From Candidatus Gastranaerophilales bacterium (lineage in GTDB: Bacteria; Cyanobacteriota; Vampirovibrionia; Gastranaerophilales; Gastranaerophilaceae), in NCBI GenBank assembly GCA_944325085.1, contig CALUYT010000007.1, positions 1 to 51,742 of the forward strand: a stretch of DNA of 51,742 nt, written 5' to 3'. This document shows positions 13,361-32,357 of the stretch, in pieces. Positions within the stretch are counted from its first letter, which is position 1; each line of letters starts with the position of its first letter. Position numbers and translations under genes: made by a program. The notes below the pieces were generated by a model, which was not told where the DNA came from, made no database searches, and saw nothing but the letters and a program-made list of their open reading frames with translations.

Positions 13361-14022
13361 ATCTTTATTATTTCATCCCAGCTCTTATATTGAAAAAATG
13401 GTGAATGACCAAATTCTAACATTTTAATCGGTACATTAAAATATTTATGACAAGCTATTTGATTTTTAGCAGGAATAATTTTATCAAACTCACTAACTAA
13501 AGCTATATCATAAAATTTATCATTTGAAATTTCGGTAGATTTAATTAAACTATATAAATTTTCAAGTTCAGAAACTCTATTTTCAATACTTCTTAAAACT
13601 TGATTATTCATATATAATTCAAATTCTTCTTCTGTTTTATACACATTTTTATAAAATTTTCCACTCAAACCTGCAAACGCGTGTTTTAAAGTTAATTCAA
13701 ACATCTTAACAGGAATTCCATATTCATTATCTACAGGTTTTATAGTTCCATTTATCGCAATTTTTTTATCGAAATTCTTAAATAAATCTTTTAATAAATA
13801 AGCAACAAAAACTCCCATTGACCAAGTTATTAAAATTTTATTTTCATAATTTGACAACTCATTCAAAACTTGAGGAATTTCAATATCATTGTAATCATAA
13901 ATCATTAACACATCATTATTTAAACATTGCAACAACTTAAACGGAGTTTCATCAAAACTCCAACCCGCAAAAAATACTATTAAATTTTTATTATTTTGCT
14001 TGTTTAACCAATAAGCTTTCAT
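13351..14022 (-). CDS. bioG: pimeloyl-ACP methyl ester esterase BioG (DUF452)
   Basis: BioG removes the methyl group placed by BioC, releasing pimeloyl-ACP for BioF. This is an alpha/beta hydrolase of the DUF452/BioG type: FFAGWSFDETPF near residues 17-28, nucleophile Ser68 in TWSMGV, a likely acid Asp180 in SEFDKIIP, and His206 in FGHSPF. It replaces the more familiar BioH. Length 223 aa fits the family. It overlaps bioF by 32 nt and bioC by 10 nt, showing strong translational coupling. No Shine-Dalgarno is needed or obvious. Confidence 0.9.
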   Translation of the reverse strand: MKAYWLNKQNNKNLIVFFAGWSFDETPFKLLQCLNNDVLMIYDYNDIEIPQVLNELSNYENKILITWSMGVFVAYLLKDLFKNFDKKIAINGTIKPVDNEYGIPVKMFELTLKHAFAGLSGKFYKNVYKTEEEFELYMNNQVLRSIENRVSELENLYSLIKSTEISNDKFYDIALVSEFDKIIPAKNQIACHKYFNVPIKMLEFGHSPFFQYKSWDEIIKICL

Positions 14023-19193: not shown

Positions 19194-19221
19194 TTGACAA
19201 TATTCTTTGAAATTATATAAT
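19194..19221 (+). promoter_or_regulatory. hisS promoter, TTGACA-16-TATAAT
   Basis: Both hexamers are perfect: -35 TTGACA (19194-19199), -10 TATAAT (19216-19221), 16-bp spacer. Only 6 nt separate the -10 from the hisS ATG, which puts the predicted first transcribed base at the start codon. Confidence 0.85.
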
Positions 19222-23757: not shown

Positions 23758-24879
23758 TTATCTGATTTGAACAGGCATTATCAAACAAATAAAGTCTTCT
23801 TCACTATTTGGTTTTAATACTGTTGCTGACAAACTTGCATTAAGACCAATTATAACTTCATCGCTTTCTATAATTCGTAACGCATCTAATACAAATTTAT
23901 AATTAAAAGCAATTAACAATTCTTCTGCAGTATATTGAATATCTATTTTATCTTCAGATTTACCTGAATCAGGAGTGTCTGCAGACAATGTCAATTCATT
24001 ATCTGCAAAAAGCATTTTTACAATACTTGTTTTATCATTTACCATTACAGAAACTCTTTCCAAAGCAGATATTAATTGAGAAACATTAACAATAGCTTGT
24101 TTTGGACTTTCTGAAGGTATTAATTGATTATATTTAGGGAATTGCCCTTCTAATAATCTTGAAATTGTTAAAGTTTTTTCTGTTTTCAATATAATTGTAG
24201 ATTTATCTTTACATATTTTTATAGTTTCATCTTCAATAAAAGCACCCATTTTCATAAATTCATTTAATGTTCTTGATGGGATAATTAATTGAGTTTGTTC
24301 TGCTATATCACTATTTATTTTTTCTCTAACTCTTGCAAGTCTATTACCATCAGTAGAAGCAATTTCTAATACTCCATTTGAAAATTCACAAACTATACCT
24401 GATAATAAATTACTTACTTCATAATTTGCAGCTGCAAAACCAGCTTGTCTAATAGCTTTCAAAAACGGTTTTAATTCTACATCAAAATATTTAGCTTCAT
24501 CACTTTCATGATTATAAAATTCTGGAGGAAATTCACTTGCAGAAATACCAATAATATCAAATTTAGATTTTTGACAAGTTATTTCAACATTAGTTCCATT
24601 TTCATCAAGTTCAAAAGTTACAAGATCATTTCCTAATTTAGAAACAATTTCGTTAAGTTTTCTTGCTGGAAGAGTAATTTTTCCAGGTTCATCTACTTGA
24701 GCATCCACATTTGTTATAACTGTTAAAACTAAATCTGTAGCCGTTAATCTAACTATATTATTTTCTAAAGCTTCTATTAATATATTATACAATACTGGTT
24801 GAACAGCTTTTTGAGAAGTTGCACGTTCTACTATTTTTATACCATTGTACAAATCTTCTTTTTTAATTATGAATTTCAT
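23758..24879 (-). CDS. dnaN: DNA polymerase III sliding clamp (beta subunit)
   Basis: DnaN forms the ring that holds the replicase on DNA. It has the three-domain layout: MKFIIKKEDLYNGIKIVERA at the start, FDIIGISASEFPP near 113, SGIVCEFSNGVLEIASTDGNRLARV near 160-185, and the terminal clamp motif ICLIMPVQIR. Length 373 aa is standard. I start at ATG 24879 because AGGAG is 7 nt upstream; a TTG two codons earlier is too close to that site. It is transcribed away from the repeat-rich region at 24.9-25.3 kb, as often seen beside replication origins. Confidence 0.97.
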   Translation of the reverse strand: MKFIIKKEDLYNGIKIVERATSQKAVQPVLYNILIEALENNIVRLTATDLVLTVITNVDAQVDEPGKITLPARKLNEIVSKLGNDLVTFELDENGTNVEITCQKSKFDIIGISASEFPPEFYNHESDEAKYFDVELKPFLKAIRQAGFAAANYEVSNLLSGIVCEFSNGVLEIASTDGNRLARVREKINSDIAEQTQLIIPSRTLNEFMKMGAFIEDETIKICKDKSTIILKTEKTLTISRLLEGQFPKYNQLIPSESPKQAIVNVSQLISALERVSVMVNDKTSIVKMLFADNELTLSADTPDSGKSEDKIDIQYTAEELLIAFNYKFVLDALRIIESDEVIIGLNASLSATVLKPNSEEDFICLIMPVQIR

Positions 24880-24885
24880 ACCCAA

Positions 24886-25335
24886 TACTCCTTAATTATT
24901 ATTGATATTATTATAGAATAAATATATCTAAAATAAAACAATATAAAGTGTTTCAAAGTCACAAATCTTTATGTTTTAGATAAATAGAAATAAGATAATA
25001 TATTATTTTTTGTAGATAACATTTTTAGAAAGTTTTATTATAAATATAATAATATAAATTAAATAAATATATATAATAAATAATATAATCATGATAATAA
25101 GTATAAAACATTTGTAGAAAACTTCTGAAAGTTTGAATATGAGCAAGTTTTGGATTGTTCATATTTTGTAGAAAATTTATAATTTTTTATTCAAAAATTG
25201 TAGATAAATTTTTGAATTATATTTTTAAAACAATTAATTGTAGAAAACTAAAACTTTTCTACATTAATTCTAAAAGTTTTCTACATAAAAATCTTTATTG
25301 TATAATTATAATGTTGACACTATCGGAGAAGGGAT
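24886..25335. other. oriC: candidate chromosomal replication origin (oriC)
   Basis: This 450-base gap holds no gene. It contains seven exact copies of TTWTCTACA, five in the reverse orientation (25011-25019, 25113-25121, 25167-25175, 25199-25207, 25239-25247) and two forward (25255-25263, 25277-25285). The motif differs from the classical DnaA box TTWTCCACA at one base. Most copies extend to TGTAGAAAACT. Between the first and second box, about 25021-25100 is almost pure A/T, a good unwinding element. dnaN lies at one edge, and gene orientation diverges from here on both sides. In several cyanobacteria the origin is beside dnaN. Known: family context. Inferred: origin function. Confidence 0.72.
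25301..25312 (+). promoter_or_regulatory. tandem -10 boxes before the 25.3-kb gene
   Basis: Two TATAAT hexamers stand back to back (25301-25306, 25307-25312), about 25 nt before the ATG at 25336. No strong -35 is seen, and the -35 position overlaps or abuts the last DnaA-like box (25277-25285), so DnaA binding could affect this promoter. Confidence 0.5.
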
Positions 25336-27054
25336 ATGGAGTTTAAAAATAAGTTTTATTCTTTTTATAATAGTATTTTGTCGTTTGTAAAAAAATATGC
25401 AGATCAATTTACGGTATTAGGTTTGTGTATTTTATTTTATTATATATTTTTTCACAATATAGGTACTTATTCTTTAATGGATGTAGATGAAACAAGATAT
25501 GTTGCTATGGCAAGGGATATGTTTCATTCAAAAGATTTTATGACATTATATTTAAATGGTCACTATTTTTTTGAAAAACCTCCATTATATTTTTGGCAAG
25601 AATGTTTATCTTTTGCTATTTTTGGAAAAGTAAACGAATGGACAGCAAGGTTTCCTGTTGCTTTATTAGGTTTTACTTTTTCAATGGTTGTTTATTTTGT
25701 TTCTAAATATTTTGTAAATAGAAGATTTGGCGTATTTACATCTTTGATATTGGCAACATCCTTAGAATTTATAATGTTGTCAAAATATGCCATATTAGAT
25801 ATTGTTTTAACTTTTTATATTGGATTATCATTAGTATCTTATTTTTCAGTTTATTTTTGTAAAGAAAAGCATCAGAAATATTTTTGGTGGGCCTTTTATA
25901 TATTTGCCGGTTTAGCTGTGATGGCAAAAGGAATACCTGGTTTTATAGTTCCTTTTGGTACTGTATTTTTCACATCTATTATGGCGAAAAAATTTAAAAA
26001 TATTTTTAAACCTATAAATATTATTCCTGGTGTTATTTTATTTTTATTGATTGTATTACCTTGGCATATTTATATGTTAAATAAATATGATCCATTATTT
26101 TTTGATGAATATATTATAAAACATCATATTGAAAGATTTTTTAATACTGCACATAATGCAATTGGGCGTAAACAACCTTTTTATTATTATTTTGTAGTTG
26201 TTTTATGGGGATTTATTCCTTGGATATTTTCAATGATTGCAGTATTTATTGATAAAATTATAAATTGGAACAAATTACATTATATAGATAAAATTGAAAG
26301 ATTTAATTTTGATGAACTTGATAATATTCATAAAATAATATCTTTATGTTGGATAACTATTATTTGGATAATGTTATTTTTCTCAGCATCAAGTACTAAA
26401 TTAGTTACATATATTCTACCAATATATTTTCCTTTAGCTATAATAACAGGTTTAATGTGGCAGGATTATGTTGATTTGAAAAAACACGAGAAACCAATAA
26501 ATATTTCAGTTAAAATTTTTGGTTGGGTTTGTGTTGTTGCAGGTATTTTAGCAATGTTTACTCCATTATATTTACCGGCACAATTAAATTATGATATTGC
26601 TGAAATAAGATGGTTTAGTTTAATTTGTCTTTTAGTTTTAGGTGTTGGAAGTTTGTTATTTGTAAAATATAGAAAATATTTAGGTGTATTTATCTTATAT
26701 GTTTTATTTATGGCTGTTGTTTCAGCTTTTGCAACTGAAGAATTTTTTGAAGTTGACTATAGATTTGGACAACAAGATTTGGTAGAATTTGCTAAATATG
26801 CAAAAAGCTATGATTATACTATATCTGCAAATGGTATGGATAGAAAATATTCTTTATTATTTTATAATGATGAACTTGTTGATTATGAATCAGAGGATAA
26901 AAATATAAAAAATATAAAACACGACTTAGCAAAAGCAAATAATATTGTAATTGTTAAAAATAAAGTTTTACCAGAATTATATAAAAATTTAGAATTTGAA
27001 GTTATTAAAAAAGGTCGTCGTTATACTATGATAAAAGGTATTACTAAAAAATAA
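25336..27054 (+). CDS. ArnT-like membrane glycosyltransferase (PMT/GT39-GT83 family)
   Basis: This is a polytopic inner-membrane enzyme that transfers a sugar from a polyprenyl-phosphate donor to a periplasmic acceptor, such as lipid A or a protein. The first periplasmic loop has the family signature MDVDETRYVAMARDM (about 48-62) with the catalytic-type acidic residues, then YFFEKPPLYFW (77-87). About eleven to twelve hydrophobic segments follow, then a soluble C-terminal part (about 480-572). Length 572 aa fits ArnT-like proteins. GGAGAAGGGA precedes the ATG. It could act on LPS (cell has lptB/F) but substrate is not readable. Confidence 0.88.
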   Translation: MEFKNKFYSFYNSILSFVKKYADQFTVLGLCILFYYIFFHNIGTYSLMDVDETRYVAMARDMFHSKDFMTLYLNGHYFFEKPPLYFWQECLSFAIFGKVNEWTARFPVALLGFTFSMVVYFVSKYFVNRRFGVFTSLILATSLEFIMLSKYAILDIVLTFYIGLSLVSYFSVYFCKEKHQKYFWWAFYIFAGLAVMAKGIPGFIVPFGTVFFTSIMAKKFKNIFKPINIIPGVILFLLIVLPWHIYMLNKYDPLFFDEYIIKHHIERFFNTAHNAIGRKQPFYYYFVVVLWGFIPWIFSMIAVFIDKIINWNKLHYIDKIERFNFDELDNIHKIISLCWITIIWIMLFFSASSTKLVTYILPIYFPLAIITGLMWQDYVDLKKHEKPINISVKIFGWVCVVAGILAMFTPLYLPAQLNYDIAEIRWFSLICLLVLGVGSLLFVKYRKYLGVFILYVLFMAVVSAFATEEFFEVDYRFGQQDLVEFAKYAKSYDYTISANGMDRKYSLLFYNDELVDYESEDKNIKNIKHDLAKANNIVIVKNKVLPELYKNLEFEVIKKGRRYTMIKGITKK

Positions 27055-27711: not shown

Positions 27712-29112
27712 TTATAATTGACTGCCTACAGCTTTGTATAAGCCTATATAATCAACCAGGCAGTTAATTTTATCATTTACAACTTGTTGATCAGTGTATA
27801 ATACATTTTCTCTGACTTGAACAAGGTCTAATTTTGAAATAGTACCTTCATTAAATTTTCCGGTGCTATAACCAAAATCTTCTCTTTCTAATTTAGCTTG
27901 AGTTTTTGTGTCATTATATTTTTCATGATCTAATTTTATTGATACTAAAGCATCGTTTACTTCTTGAATAGCTGTTAAGTTTGTTTGATAGTAACTATTT
28001 AATAATCTTTCATAAGTATCTTTTTTCAATCTTAAATTAGCTATTCTTCTGCCACCTGTAAATATAGGTAAATTTATACCTGCTGCTAATGCGGCAAGAG
28101 CACTTTTTGTTGACCAAGCACTACCTAAATCACCTGATAAAAACAATGCTAATCCTGTTATATTTATTGATGGTAGAAATTCTTTTCTTGCAATTCTTAC
28201 ATCAATACCTGCTTTTTCTATCATTTTTTCAGCTTTTATATAATCAGGTCTTTGAGAAATTATTTCAGATTGAATTTCTGTAGGTATGTTGCCTGTAAAT
28301 TTTATATCATCAAAGCTTATTCTTTTTAAAGACTCTATATTATTAGGATTTTCTCCAATTAAAACACTTAATTGATTTAATAATTTAGTTCTTTGTTTTT
28401 TATATTCTGTTAAACTAGTATTTCCTGCAATATATGATTTATTAGCTTTAACAGTATCTGAAGTTGAAGTTAAACCTTCTTTATTTCTTGCAAGCATCAA
28501 TTCATAAATTAATTTTCTGTCTTTAACAATATCTTCTTGCAATTCTATCATTTTATCTAATTTGACAATATTTAAATAAGTTGTGCCAACTGCAGATGCT
28601 ATAGAAATATATGCAGCTCTTTCGTCTTGTAAAGATGCTTCATATTCCTTTTCAGAAGCTTTTGTTTTATCTCTGTTTTTTAAGAATAAATCAACTTCAT
28701 AATTAGCTATAGCAGGTGTTGCAAACATCCAATCTGATGAAACTGTATTTGGCATTTTTGTAAATGCAGGAGAAAAACCTGCACCAGCTATAGGTAACTC
28801 ATTTGCAAATTGAATTTTTACTGCTTGATAATATTCGTCAACCGCAATAGTTGCAGATTTTAAATCATAGTTATTTTTTATTGCTTTATCTATATAACCG
28901 TTTAAAATATCATCATTAAAATTCTTCCACCAATCATAATTTATATATTCATACTTAAATTCATCACTTTTTTGTTTTTGTTTATGCATTTTCGAAATAG
29001 AAACTTTTTTAGGTTCATTTGTTGATTTTTTACCTATAGCAAAACATGATAACGGAGTAATGTTTGTACAAATAAAACTTGCTAATAATAGTATAACTAT
29101 CTTCTTTTTCAA
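27712..29112 (-). CDS. TolC/OprM-family outer-membrane efflux protein
   Basis: This is the outer-membrane channel of a tripartite efflux pump. A signal peptide (about 1-25, ending SCFA) is followed by two outer-membrane-efflux repeats with the long helices and strands typical of TolC: for example NYDLKSATIAVDEYYQA near 75, ISQRPDYIKAEKMIEKAGIDVRIA near 285-308, and LDLVQVRENVLYT near 427. The Cys in the signal end is not in a good lipobox. Length 466 aa is normal. The start is TTG 29112 with GAGG upstream. It diverges from marR-emrA-emrB and shares their palindromic operator, so the four genes probably form one regulated pump. Confidence 0.9.
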   Translation of the reverse strand: MKKKIVILLLASFICTNITPLSCFAIGKKSTNEPKKVSISKMHKQKQKSDEFKYEYINYDWWKNFNDDILNGYIDKAIKNNYDLKSATIAVDEYYQAVKIQFANELPIAGAGFSPAFTKMPNTVSSDWMFATPAIANYEVDLFLKNRDKTKASEKEYEASLQDERAAYISIASAVGTTYLNIVKLDKMIELQEDIVKDRKLIYELMLARNKEGLTSTSDTVKANKSYIAGNTSLTEYKKQRTKLLNQLSVLIGENPNNIESLKRISFDDIKFTGNIPTEIQSEIISQRPDYIKAEKMIEKAGIDVRIARKEFLPSINITGLALFLSGDLGSAWSTKSALAALAAGINLPIFTGGRRIANLRLKKDTYERLLNSYYQTNLTAIQEVNDALVSIKLDHEKYNDTKTQAKLEREDFGYSTGKFNEGTISKLDLVQVRENVLYTDQQVVNDKINCLVDYIGLYKAVGSQL

Positions 29113-29159
29113 TGTTTTATATCCTCTTAAAATTAATTACTTGCATTTTGTATATCAGT

Positions 29160-29196
29160 ATGATAACATAATATTGTTGCAAATGCAACATATAAT
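29160..29196. promoter_or_regulatory. divergent promoter with a MarR-type palindromic operator
   Basis: A perfect palindrome TGTTGCA-AA-TGCAACA (29175-29190) sits between the tolC-like gene and marR. Toward tolC, -35 TTGCAT (29183-29188), 17-bp spacer, -10 TATCAT (29160-29165). Toward marR, a perfect -10 TATAAT (29191-29196) touches the palindrome; its -35 is poor. A repressor bound here would block both promoters, the usual arrangement for MarR autoregulation. Confidence 0.75.
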
Positions 29197-29231
29197 TTTT
29201 ACAACAAAGAGAAAAATACTAAATAAAATCT

Positions 29232-29693
29232 ATGTATAAATGTGAACACTACACAGAATCAATATATTATCAATTAGAACAAACAGCTAAGTATTGTAGA
29301 TATTTAGGCATGCAAATATTTCAAAAGTTAAATATTCCATTAACAATGGATGAGTTTGTAGCATTAGATGTAATAAATACAAACGATGGAATTTGCCAAA
29401 GAGAGTTAGCTAAGTTGATATTAAAAGATAGACCTAATACTGGGCGAATATTAAATACTCTTGAAGATAAGGGTTATATAAAAAGATTTGTGGATACAAA
29501 AAATAACAGACTTGTAAGAAGAATGTCTTTAACTGAAGATGGTTACAAAGTAACAAATGAAGTTACTGAAATTTTAAGAGATTATATAAATAAATTACCA
29601 AAAGTTTTTTCAGAAGATGATAAACAAGAGTTAATGAGTTCTTTGAAAAAATTTAAAGAGAGCTTAGAAAAAGAAGTAGCAATGAATATATAA
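29232..29693 (+). CDS. MarR-family transcriptional regulator
   Basis: A winged-helix repressor of the MarR family, probably sensing a toxic ligand. Recognition part: ICQRELAKLILKDRPNTGR (about 56-74) followed by ILNTLEDKGYIKRF and the wing DTKNNRLVRRMSLTEDGYK. Length 153 aa is standard, with helices at both ends for dimer formation. No strong Shine-Dalgarno is seen before the ATG. It is the first gene of marR-emrA-emrB (13 nt to emrA) and the likely binder of the palindrome in front of it. Confidence 0.92.
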   Translation: MYKCEHYTESIYYQLEQTAKYCRYLGMQIFQKLNIPLTMDEFVALDVINTNDGICQRELAKLILKDRPNTGRILNTLEDKGYIKRFVDTKNNRLVRRMSLTEDGYKVTNEVTEILRDYINKLPKVFSEDDKQELMSSLKKFKESLEKEVAMNI

Positions 29694-29706
29694 GAGGTTA
29701 TAAAAT

Positions 29707-30717
29707 ATGGAAGAAAATTTAGAAAATAAAAACGAAAAGACAGAAGAAAGTACTATTCAAAAACCTAAAGGAATAAAAAGAACTATAGCTTTGTTATTAA
29801 CGGTTGTAGTAGTTATTTTTGCTGGTTTATATATTCTTCATGAATTGCATTATCAATCAACAGATGATGCTTATGTTGAAACAACAATGGTAAATGTATC
29901 ACCAAGAGTATCAGGTCAAATTGAAGAAGTTTTCATCACAGATAACCAACACATAAAAGAAGGTGATTTAGTCGCAATTATAGATGATGATGATTACAAA
30001 ATAAAATTAGAACAAGCAGATTCTACATATGAAAAAATAAAATTGGATCAATCAAACGCAAAAGCTAATTTAGTAGCAGCACAATCAAATATTGCATTAG
30101 CTAAAAAAGATTTAGACAGATATAGAAACTTATATGAACAAGGTGCAGTATCAAAACAAACATTTGATGCAGCACAAGTTAAATATGATAGTGCTCAAGC
30201 AAATTTGACACAAGCAAATCAAGCTTTATTTTCTGATAAAGAAGGAAAAACAGTTGCTGATGCAAACTTAAGATCAGCAAAAGCTGCTAAAGACAAAGCT
30301 GCATTAGATTTATCATACACAAAAATATACGCACCTCAATCAGGTACAGTATCATCAAGAAGAGTAGAAAAAGGTATGTGGGTTTCAGCAGGTTCACCTT
30401 TATTTACTTTAGTACCTGAAGAAGTATGGATAGTAGCTAATTTTAAAGAAAATCAATTAAAAGATATGAAACCGGGTCAACCTGTAGATATTAAAATTGA
30501 TACATATCCAAATAAAATATTTAAAGGAAAGGTTGATAGTATTCAAAGAGCATCTGGTGCAAAATCAAGTTTATTCCCACCAGAAAATGCTGTTGGATCT
30601 TTCGTAAAAATCGTACAAAGAATACCTGTAAAAATTGTATTTACTGAAAAAATTGATCCAGAACAATATAATATAGTTCCAGGTATGTCAGTAGTGCCAA
30701 AAGTAAAAGTTAAGTAA
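29707..30717 (+). CDS. emrA: EmrA/HlyD-type membrane-fusion protein
   Basis: This periplasmic adaptor links an inner-membrane transporter to a TolC channel. One N-terminal membrane anchor (about 25-44) is followed by the biotinyl-lipoyl half STDDAYVETTMVNVSPRVSG, a helical hairpin (about 95-195) and the second half TKIYAPQSGTVSSRRVEKG. The C-terminal beta-barrel includes VEEWIVANFKENQL-like residues near 240. Length 336 aa is slightly short but complete. AGAGG precedes the ATG. It lies between marR and emrB. Confidence 0.92.
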   Translation: MEENLENKNEKTEESTIQKPKGIKRTIALLLTVVVVIFAGLYILHELHYQSTDDAYVETTMVNVSPRVSGQIEEVFITDNQHIKEGDLVAIIDDDDYKIKLEQADSTYEKIKLDQSNAKANLVAAQSNIALAKKDLDRYRNLYEQGAVSKQTFDAAQVKYDSAQANLTQANQALFSDKEGKTVADANLRSAKAAKDKAALDLSYTKIYAPQSGTVSSRRVEKGMWVSAGSPLFTLVPEEVWIVANFKENQLKDMKPGQPVDIKIDTYPNKIFKGKVDSIQRASGAKSSLFPPENAVGSFVKIVQRIPVKIVFTEKIDPEQYNIVPGMSVVPKVKVK

Positions 30718-30741
30718 AATATAATAATTGAAAAGTTTAAA

Positions 30742-30773
30742 AAAGAATATCGACATAAAAGTCGGTATTCTTT
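30742..30773 (+). promoter_or_regulatory. emrA-emrB intercistronic hairpin
   Basis: A 13-bp stem AAAGAATATCGAC / GTCGGTATTCTTT (one G-T pair) with a 6-base loop fills the emrA-emrB gap. There is no T-run after it, so it is more likely an mRNA-stabilising or processing element than a terminator. Confidence 0.5.
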
Positions 30774-30788
30774 CATAAAGAGGGAATA

Positions 30789-32357
30789 ATGTCTGAAGAA
30801 ATAAAAGAACAAGTTGCACAGGCAGATGATGATAGTAAATATTTGCCTGAGAATCCATGGATATCTGCTGTACCAACATTATTAGCTGTATTTATTTACG
30901 TAATAGATGGTACAATTGCAAACGTAGCATTACCATATATGGCTGGGAGTTTTTCAGCAACAAGAGATGAAAGTATTTGGATTTTAACCAGTTATTTAAT
31001 CGCAAGTGGTATAATCATTCCATCTGTAGGTTTTTTCTCTAAATTTTTCGGTAGAAAAAACTTTTATGTAATAAGTATATTGTTATTTACCATAGCATCA
31101 ATGCTTTGCGGTATGGCAAGAAATCTTGGTGAAATGGTTTTATTTAGATTTTTGCAAGGTGCAGGTGGCGGAGGTATTTTACCAATATCTCAAGCTGTTA
31201 TGATGGAAAGTTTTCCAAAAGAAAAACGTGGTATGGCCATGTCTGTTTTCGGTTTAGGTATAATTATTGCACCTATTGCAGGTCCTGTTTTAGGTGGTTG
31301 GATTACAGATAATTGGTCTTGGCCTTGGATATTTTTTATTAATGTTCCTTTTGGCTGTCTTGCTGCAATATTATCTCATAAATTATTATTTAATCCGCCT
31401 TATGCACAAAGAGAAAAAGGTGTAAAAATGGATGCTTTAGGGTTTTTCTTTTTAACTCTTTGGCTTTTATGTTTACAAATATTCTTTGATAAAGGTAATA
31501 ATGCCGATTGGTTTAATGCAACTTGGATATGTTGGTTGTTTACAGCATCTTGTGTATCTGGAATATGTTTTTTTATTTCTCAATTAATAAGAAAAGATAC
31601 TTTAGTTGATTTAAGTGTATTTAAAGATAGAAATTTTGTTATTGGTACTTTTATTCAGGTTGTAATGCAAGCTGTATTATATGCATCTTTAGCAATTTTG
31701 CCTCAATTTTTACAAAGTATGATGGGTTATACAGCATTTTTAAGCGGTTTTTCAATGATGCCTAGAGGTTTGGGTAGTATGACGGCTATGATTATTTGTG
31801 CATTAATTTCTGATAAAGTTGATAAAAGAGCTTTAGTTGCTATGGGACTTTTCTTATTAGGTTTTGCAGGTTTATTCTTTGGATTTTTAAATTTACAAAT
31901 TGCCAATATAAATATTATGATTCCTAATTATATTATGGGTCTTGGTATGGGACTTTCTATGGTTCCTATAATAAATTTATCTTTAGAAACTTTATCAAAT
32001 ATTCAAATGACAAATGCGACAGGTTTACAAAATTTGTTGAAAAATATAGGTAGTGCTATTGGAACATCGCTTGTTGCAACTATGTTGACAAGATTTAGCC
32101 AAATACACCAGTATATGATGGTAGGTAAATTAAATGATTTGAATCCTGCTTTTACAGAAAGAGTACAAGCAACTACTGCTATGTTATCTCAATATACTCA
32201 TGTTTCTGTTGCTAATCATATGGCTCAATATTCTCAATACGGAACATTATTAAAGCAGTCTAGTTTATGGGCTTATATGGATTCATTTAGAATATTTGGT
32301 TTATTGTGCTTTTTATTAATACCTTTATTATTATTATTTAAAAGAAGTAAAGTATAA
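30789..32357 (+). CDS. emrB: EmrB/QacA-family (DHA2) drug:H+ antiporter
   Basis: This inner-membrane MFS exporter of the 14-helix DHA2 group pumps hydrophobic toxins. The sequence shows about 14 hydrophobic spans. The DHA2 motif GWRWIFFINVP-like segment is present as DNWSWPWIFFINVPFG (about 177-192), with motif A-like GFFSKFFGRKN near 80 and motif C GIIIAPIAGPVLGGWI near 156-171. Length 522 aa is typical. GAGGG lies 5 nt before the ATG. A terminator follows. Works with emrA and the divergent tolC-like gene; substrate unknown. Confidence 0.93.
   Translation: MSEEIKEQVAQADDDSKYLPENPWISAVPTLLAVFIYVIDGTIANVALPYMAGSFSATRDESIWILTSYLIASGIIIPSVGFFSKFFGRKNFYVISILLFTIASMLCGMARNLGEMVLFRFLQGAGGGGILPISQAVMMESFPKEKRGMAMSVFGLGIIIAPIAGPVLGGWITDNWSWPWIFFINVPFGCLAAILSHKLLFNPPYAQREKGVKMDALGFFFLTLWLLCLQIFFDKGNNADWFNATWICWLFTASCVSGICFFISQLIRKDTLVDLSVFKDRNFVIGTFIQVVMQAVLYASLAILPQFLQSMMGYTAFLSGFSMMPRGLGSMTAMIICALISDKVDKRALVAMGLFLLGFAGLFFGFLNLQIANINIMIPNYIMGLGMGLSMVPIINLSLETLSNIQMTNATGLQNLLKNIGSAIGTSLVATMLTRFSQIHQYMMVGKLNDLNPAFTERVQATTAMLSQYTHVSVANHMAQYSQYGTLLKQSSLWAYMDSFRIFGLLCFLLIPLLLLFKRSKV

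Follow-up and report, generated by a model that had tools for sequence, protein, structure and literature searches.

Is the intergenic region beside dnaN in Candidatus Gastranaerophilales bacterium the chromosomal origin of replication (oriC), and does the 9-mer repeated within it act as a DnaA box? Gastranaerophilales are non-photosynthetic relatives of cyanobacteria and a common gut order. We studied the region (24880..25335) in a stretch of 51,742 nucleotides, hereafter the window, and in the whole assembly (65 contigs, 1.887 Mb, 96% complete), which was searched by pattern. Two divergent genes flank it. On the left, dnaN (23758..24879, minus strand, translation start at 24879) encodes the DNA polymerase III beta clamp (TIGR00663, 279.6 bits, above cut-off), and its named relatives, up to 92% identical, are labelled Candidatus Gastranaerophilales or Melainabacteria. 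On the right lies a gene for a PMT-family (ArnT-like) glycosyltransferase (25336..27054, plus strand; PF02366, 86.5 bits), a neighbour that is not thought to have a part in origin function. A few kilobases from the region, at 27712-32357, lie genes that encode an outer-membrane efflux protein (NodT/TolC type) and a transporter of the EmrB type.

A first, sequence-only reading had reported seven exact copies of TTWTCTACA, five reverse and two forward, in about 275 bases beside dnaN, and no further copies in the window. By searching the window for this pattern, we recovered all seven at that density, within 275 bp (25011-25285) of the intergenic region between dnaN and the glycosyltransferase gene. 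They start at 25011, 25113, 25167, 25199 and 25239 on the minus strand and at 25255 and 25277 on the plus strand. The cluster is not, however, the only place in the window where the word occurs, as an eighth exact copy lies outside it at 13727(+). The classical TTWTCCACA had no match in the window. First, in 20,000 Markov shuffles of 24886-25335, TTWTCTACA occurred 0.03 times on average and three times at most. Second, the Poisson probability of finding seven copies in 275 bp at the genome density is about 2e-15 per window of that kind. Third, two copies on the same strand with 20-50 bp between them were found three times in the assembly, each time in the cluster, and never for the reversed control. 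A genome-wide count had been proposed as a check: with 181 copies of TTWTCTACA in 1.887 Mb against 173 of the reversed control, the word is not enriched as such and only its clustering is special, yet the cluster is unique.

This intergenic cluster is the sole group of DnaA-box-like 9-mers that we found in the assembly. No equally dense rival was detected at dnaA or at any other locus in the assembly-wide search: the single dnaA found is on another contig, adjoining ruvA, and carries one copy of the word, within the coding region. Nevertheless, an assembly of 65 contigs and 96% completeness could be missing a second cluster, in which case the one described here might be a DnaA-titration or regulatory cluster of the datA or DARS type, with oriC elsewhere, perhaps in an unassembled gap. 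The features that accompany the boxes, and the GC skew considered below, bear on this point.

The near-pure A/T stretch reported earlier at 25021-25100 does contain only 4 G/C in 80 bases, the lowest 80-bp value of the window, and forms an AT-rich DNA unwinding element beside the boxes. It is conserved: in most same-genus relatives, a homologous 60-bp stretch, mostly with 1-4 G/C, as a rule starts some 84 bases ahead of the first box. A DnaA-trio-like stretch, TTATTATCATGATTA (25086..25100, minus strand), is located 12 nt from the box at 25113, an offset common to the relatives. In this genome it is made of two clean repeats plus TCATGATTA, while in several sister genera it reads (YTA)5 at the same offset, between the first box and the AT-rich element. 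A basal unwinding system consists successively of a box, a spacer, a trio and AT-rich DNA (PMC8235120, PMC8287927); here too the triplets lie at most 16 bp from the box, with the right polarity and with AT-rich DNA beyond. Across the order, a box followed by at least two YTA triplets at 9-14 nt was found in 71 of 87 origins, compared to 10 for the reversed control.

The arrangement of the boxes is shared within the genus. In 20 same-genus elements, boxes are found at relative positions 0, 54, 86 and 126 in reverse and at 142 and 164 in forward orientation, with small shifts. Box 0, proximal to the unwinding element (TTTTCTACA, 25113..25121, minus strand), is identical in 20/20 elements and box +54 (TTTTCTACA, 25167..25175, minus strand) is likewise present in 20/20, but this pair served as the alignment anchor, so that its perfect conservation follows in part from the alignment itself. 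The remaining positions are outside the anchor. At +86 (TTATCTACA, 25199..25207, minus strand) the position is conserved, with TTWTCTACA in 13/20 elements and mostly TTTTATACA or TTTTGAACA in the rest, and at +126 (25239..25247, minus strand) TTTTCTACA is kept in 14/20. The two opposing boxes on the plus strand, both TTTTCTACA here, read TTWTCTACA in 16/20 elements at +142 (25255..25263) and in 15/20 at +164 (25277..25285). The exact match TTATCTACA on the other side of the AT-rich element (25011..25019, minus strand) is present, in this same-genus comparison, only in this genome and in G006. Other genera of the family have boxes at 0, 55, 87 and 116 in reverse and at 133 and 155 in forward orientation. 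Genus and family thus share one design: an AT-rich element, a DnaA-trio at some 12 nt from the first box, and then four boxes in one orientation and two in the other.

It had been predicted that the same 9-mers would be conserved upstream of dnaN in relatives. The cluster is indeed conserved, but its place is less so: in about half of the genus the element does not adjoin dnaN and no boxes lie directly upstream of that gene. By the criterion of the sequence-only reading, such an absence would speak against an origin, but most of these genomes have the same element kilobases away, often with the layout intact. In nine same-genus genomes (G002, G004, G006, G008, G009, G022, G026, G033 and G034), oriC and dnaN are on the same contig and about 3 to 62 kb apart, which suggests that rearrangements near the origin are frequent. 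Within this genus, dnaN is therefore a poor marker of oriC. In G003 (contigs C7, C88 and C17), about 5 kb separate the box cluster from a second dnaN with 70% identity to the query; the genome also has an 84% copy and a third, weak match. Either contamination (4%) or a real duplication would account for this.

The separation of the element from dnaN in relatives made GC skew more informative. In the window, third-position skew computed gene by gene on the plus strand takes mostly negative values to the left of the region and mostly positive ones to its right, whichever strand the gene is on, and its cumulative minimum falls between the gene ends at 24879 and 25335. The skew check proposed by the sequence-only reading thus succeeded for third positions but not for the raw cumulative skew, the minimum of which lies away from the cluster at 19205, probably through distortion by gene orientation. 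On contig C2 of G033, the raw minimum (169014) is 0.1 kb from the cluster pair at 168821-168883, whereas dnaN (106086) is 62 kb away. In G006 (contig C4), the raw minimum (94081) is 1.5 kb from the start of the cluster (95564), with dnaN (142418) at 47 kb. The third-position minima lie 7.5 kb (G033) and 1.5 kb (G006) from the clusters; gene orientation and noise are likely causes of the 7.5-kb offset, as of the raw minimum in the window. In G086, from another genus, the raw and third-position minima are respectively 5 kb and 2 kb from its own cluster. Skew therefore tracks the boxes rather than dnaN in relatives in which the two are far apart.

These observations bear on two alternatives. A cluster between two divergent genes is where promoters are expected, and the boxes could be arrayed operators at which a regulator controls transcription of dnaN and of the divergent gene, with no origin involved. 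We rejected this explanation on the grounds that, in relatives, the skew switch shifts away from dnaN along with the element, whose layout is intact kilobases from the gene; an operator would also leave the unwinding element, the fixed-distance trio and the skew unexplained, and we consider it very improbable. Equally slight is the probability of the titration or regulatory cluster evoked above, since skew switches in this region as well as at its homologue in three relatives, and titration sites would account neither for this switch nor for the unwinding element and the trio. Together, the unique cluster, the change of skew sign and the conservation of the cluster in relatives support the earlier proposal, and we conclude that the region is very probably oriC.

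We then considered the box itself. Counting boxes as TTWTNNACA, with positions 5 and 6 free, in 87 origins of the order yielded 698 boxes, in which position 6 is T in 497, A in 174, G in 18 and C in 9. Thus, T or A occupies position 6 in 671/698 boxes (96%), and the C found there in the cyanobacterial TTTTCCACA and in the E. coli TTWTNCACA in 1.3%; TTWTCCACA, as mentioned, has no copy in the window. At position 5, C occurs in 402/698 boxes. From the position-6 counts, the order consensus is TTWTNWACA, with CT dominant at positions 5-6, usually as TTTTCTACA. In the named loci, which extend up to 10 kb from dnaN in either direction, the word with T at position 6 reaches up to 10 copies per 400 bp, while those with C, G or A and the control reach at most 2. 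The idea of a lineage-specific box is thereby supported and refined, from TTWTCTACA to TTWTNWACA. Our literature search, thin on subscription journals, turned up no study that describes an origin from Gastranaerophilales or treats TTWTCTACA as a DnaA box. Photosynthetic species of the phylum have pairs of TTTTCCACA instead, in agreement with a previous study (PMC4674748). In one group of Gastranaerophilales (L229-L245), the 700 bp upstream of dnaN contain TTWTGAACA 66 times, TTWTCTACA 34 times and TTWTATACA 18 times, and the predominance of the first suggests that box preference has drifted again inside the order.

Could the T at position 6 be a mere effect of base composition? The G+C content of the window is about 23-33%, and the region could be an oriC whose DnaA still reads TTWTNCACA, the T having arisen by drift in a low-GC genome and Lys433 of DnaA, described below, being unrelated. 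Such drift would affect both free positions, yet C is found in 402/698 boxes at position 5 and in 9/698 at position 6; moreover, positions 7-9 (ACA) retain their C, and TTWTCCACA clusters at no dnaN locus of the order. Given the contrast between positions 5 and 6, we judge a low-GC artefact unlikely. It does draw some support from the assignment of Asp433 of E. coli DnaA to box position 7 rather than 6, as given in papers citing the crystal structure of the DnaA-box complex.

The DnaA of this genome has the AAA+ domain and the helix-turn-helix domain IV of the family (PF00308, 182.7 bits; PF08299, 85.1 bits; PF11638, 41.3 bits). However, the residue aligned to E. coli Asp433 is Lys in all 75 Gastranaerophilales DnaAs read, while it is Asp in 16/16 DnaAs from members of the phylum that lie outside the class; the neighbouring His434 persists in nearly all DnaAs of the order. 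The same papers describe Asp433 as a highly conserved base contact. The order protein, lacking this Asp, is a variant within the DnaA family and not a non-member. The changed box position 6 adjoins the base contacted by Asp433, and a causal tie between Lys433 and the change at position 6 is plausible but inferred. As both changes coincide in one clade only, they count as a single evolutionary event, with no independent replicates. A second lineage of the class likewise has a different residue, as three members of family f9 (L146, L147 and L148) have Thr at 433 (NRTHSS); no box was found for them upstream of dnaN or as close pairs, in a weak search that at 2/3 loci covered dnaN coding region and not the DNA upstream of it. 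In another genome of the class (G058, family f8; 4.3 Mb, 90% complete), neither DnaA nor DnaN was matched at E <= 0.001 by the queries used, which may reflect divergence or incompleteness.

Taken as a whole, the comparisons make us highly confident that the region would serve as the Gastranaerophilales chromosomal oriC, at which DnaA with Lys433 would bind TTWTNWACA, here as TTWTCTACA, and a trio would lead the opening of the AT-rich element. DnaA would bind the boxes through domain IV, which carries Lys433, and this residue may be the reason why position 6 changed. By analogy with known origins, the four same-facing boxes at 25113, 25167, 25199 and 25239 would allow a DnaA filament to be loaded in one direction. 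From the box at 25113, DnaA would then pass to the single-stranded trio (25086-25100), and trio-bound DnaA would open 25021-25100, where helicase would be loaded and two forks would start. The opposing boxes at 25255 and 25277 may make up the second of two arms, an arrangement known from E. coli oriC.

Few protein-DNA contacts in bacteria are as conserved as those by which the initiator recognizes the origin. Judging from its sequences, the order as a whole appears to have altered both the word that DnaA binds and a residue by which DnaA contacts DNA. If so, this would be a natural case of initiator-origin co-evolution, testable with small proteins and short DNA. One scenario, which we believe and doubt in equal measure, is that Asp433 to Lys and C to T or A at position 6 changed together near the base of the order, giving a start code poorly read by ordinary DnaA, and that a sub-lineage later drifted to TTWTGAACA. 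Since origin finders default to TTATCCACA or TTTTCCACA (PMC10225481), origins of this gut order may be missed; TTWTNWACA would allow their annotation, as well as peak-to-trough growth rates from metagenomes.

By its features, the region thus looks like an oriC of ordinary type that includes a basal unwinding system; what is new is its variant of the DnaA box, which extends across the order and is apparently matched by a change of residue in DnaA. In cyanobacteria (Synechococcus, Anabaena PCC 7120 and Cyanothece 51142), oriC has TTTTCCACA as its box and is commonly beside dnaN, not necessarily dnaA (PMC4674748). These bacteria belong to the same phylum in the genome taxonomy used and their 9-mer is the same but for one base (PMC4674748), but they combine C at position 6 with Asp433 in DnaA, whereas Gastranaerophilales combine T or A with Lys433. 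Precedents for lineage-specific boxes with differing domain IV contact residues are Thermotoga maritima, with the box ACCTACCAC, and the Epsilonproteobacteria, with T at position 5 (PMC10316083, PMC5043019, PMC7561715); there, however, other bases and other residues changed, and the Epsilonproteobacteria keep the HD dyad 433-434. As in the basal unwinding system of Bacillus subtilis and other bacteria, the element described here has a box, a spacer of at most 16 bp, YTA triplets of the same polarity and AT-rich DNA beyond (PMC8235120, PMC8287927), but the box is a variant, the spacer is longer, at about 12 nt, and lacks a clear GC cluster, and the trio is imperfect in this genus. Finally, as in E. 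coli oriC, the boxes form two arms of opposite orientation, and the unwinding element lies past one of these (PMC10316083); the element differs from E. coli oriC in its box word, in having fewer exact boxes and in the presence of a DnaA-trio.
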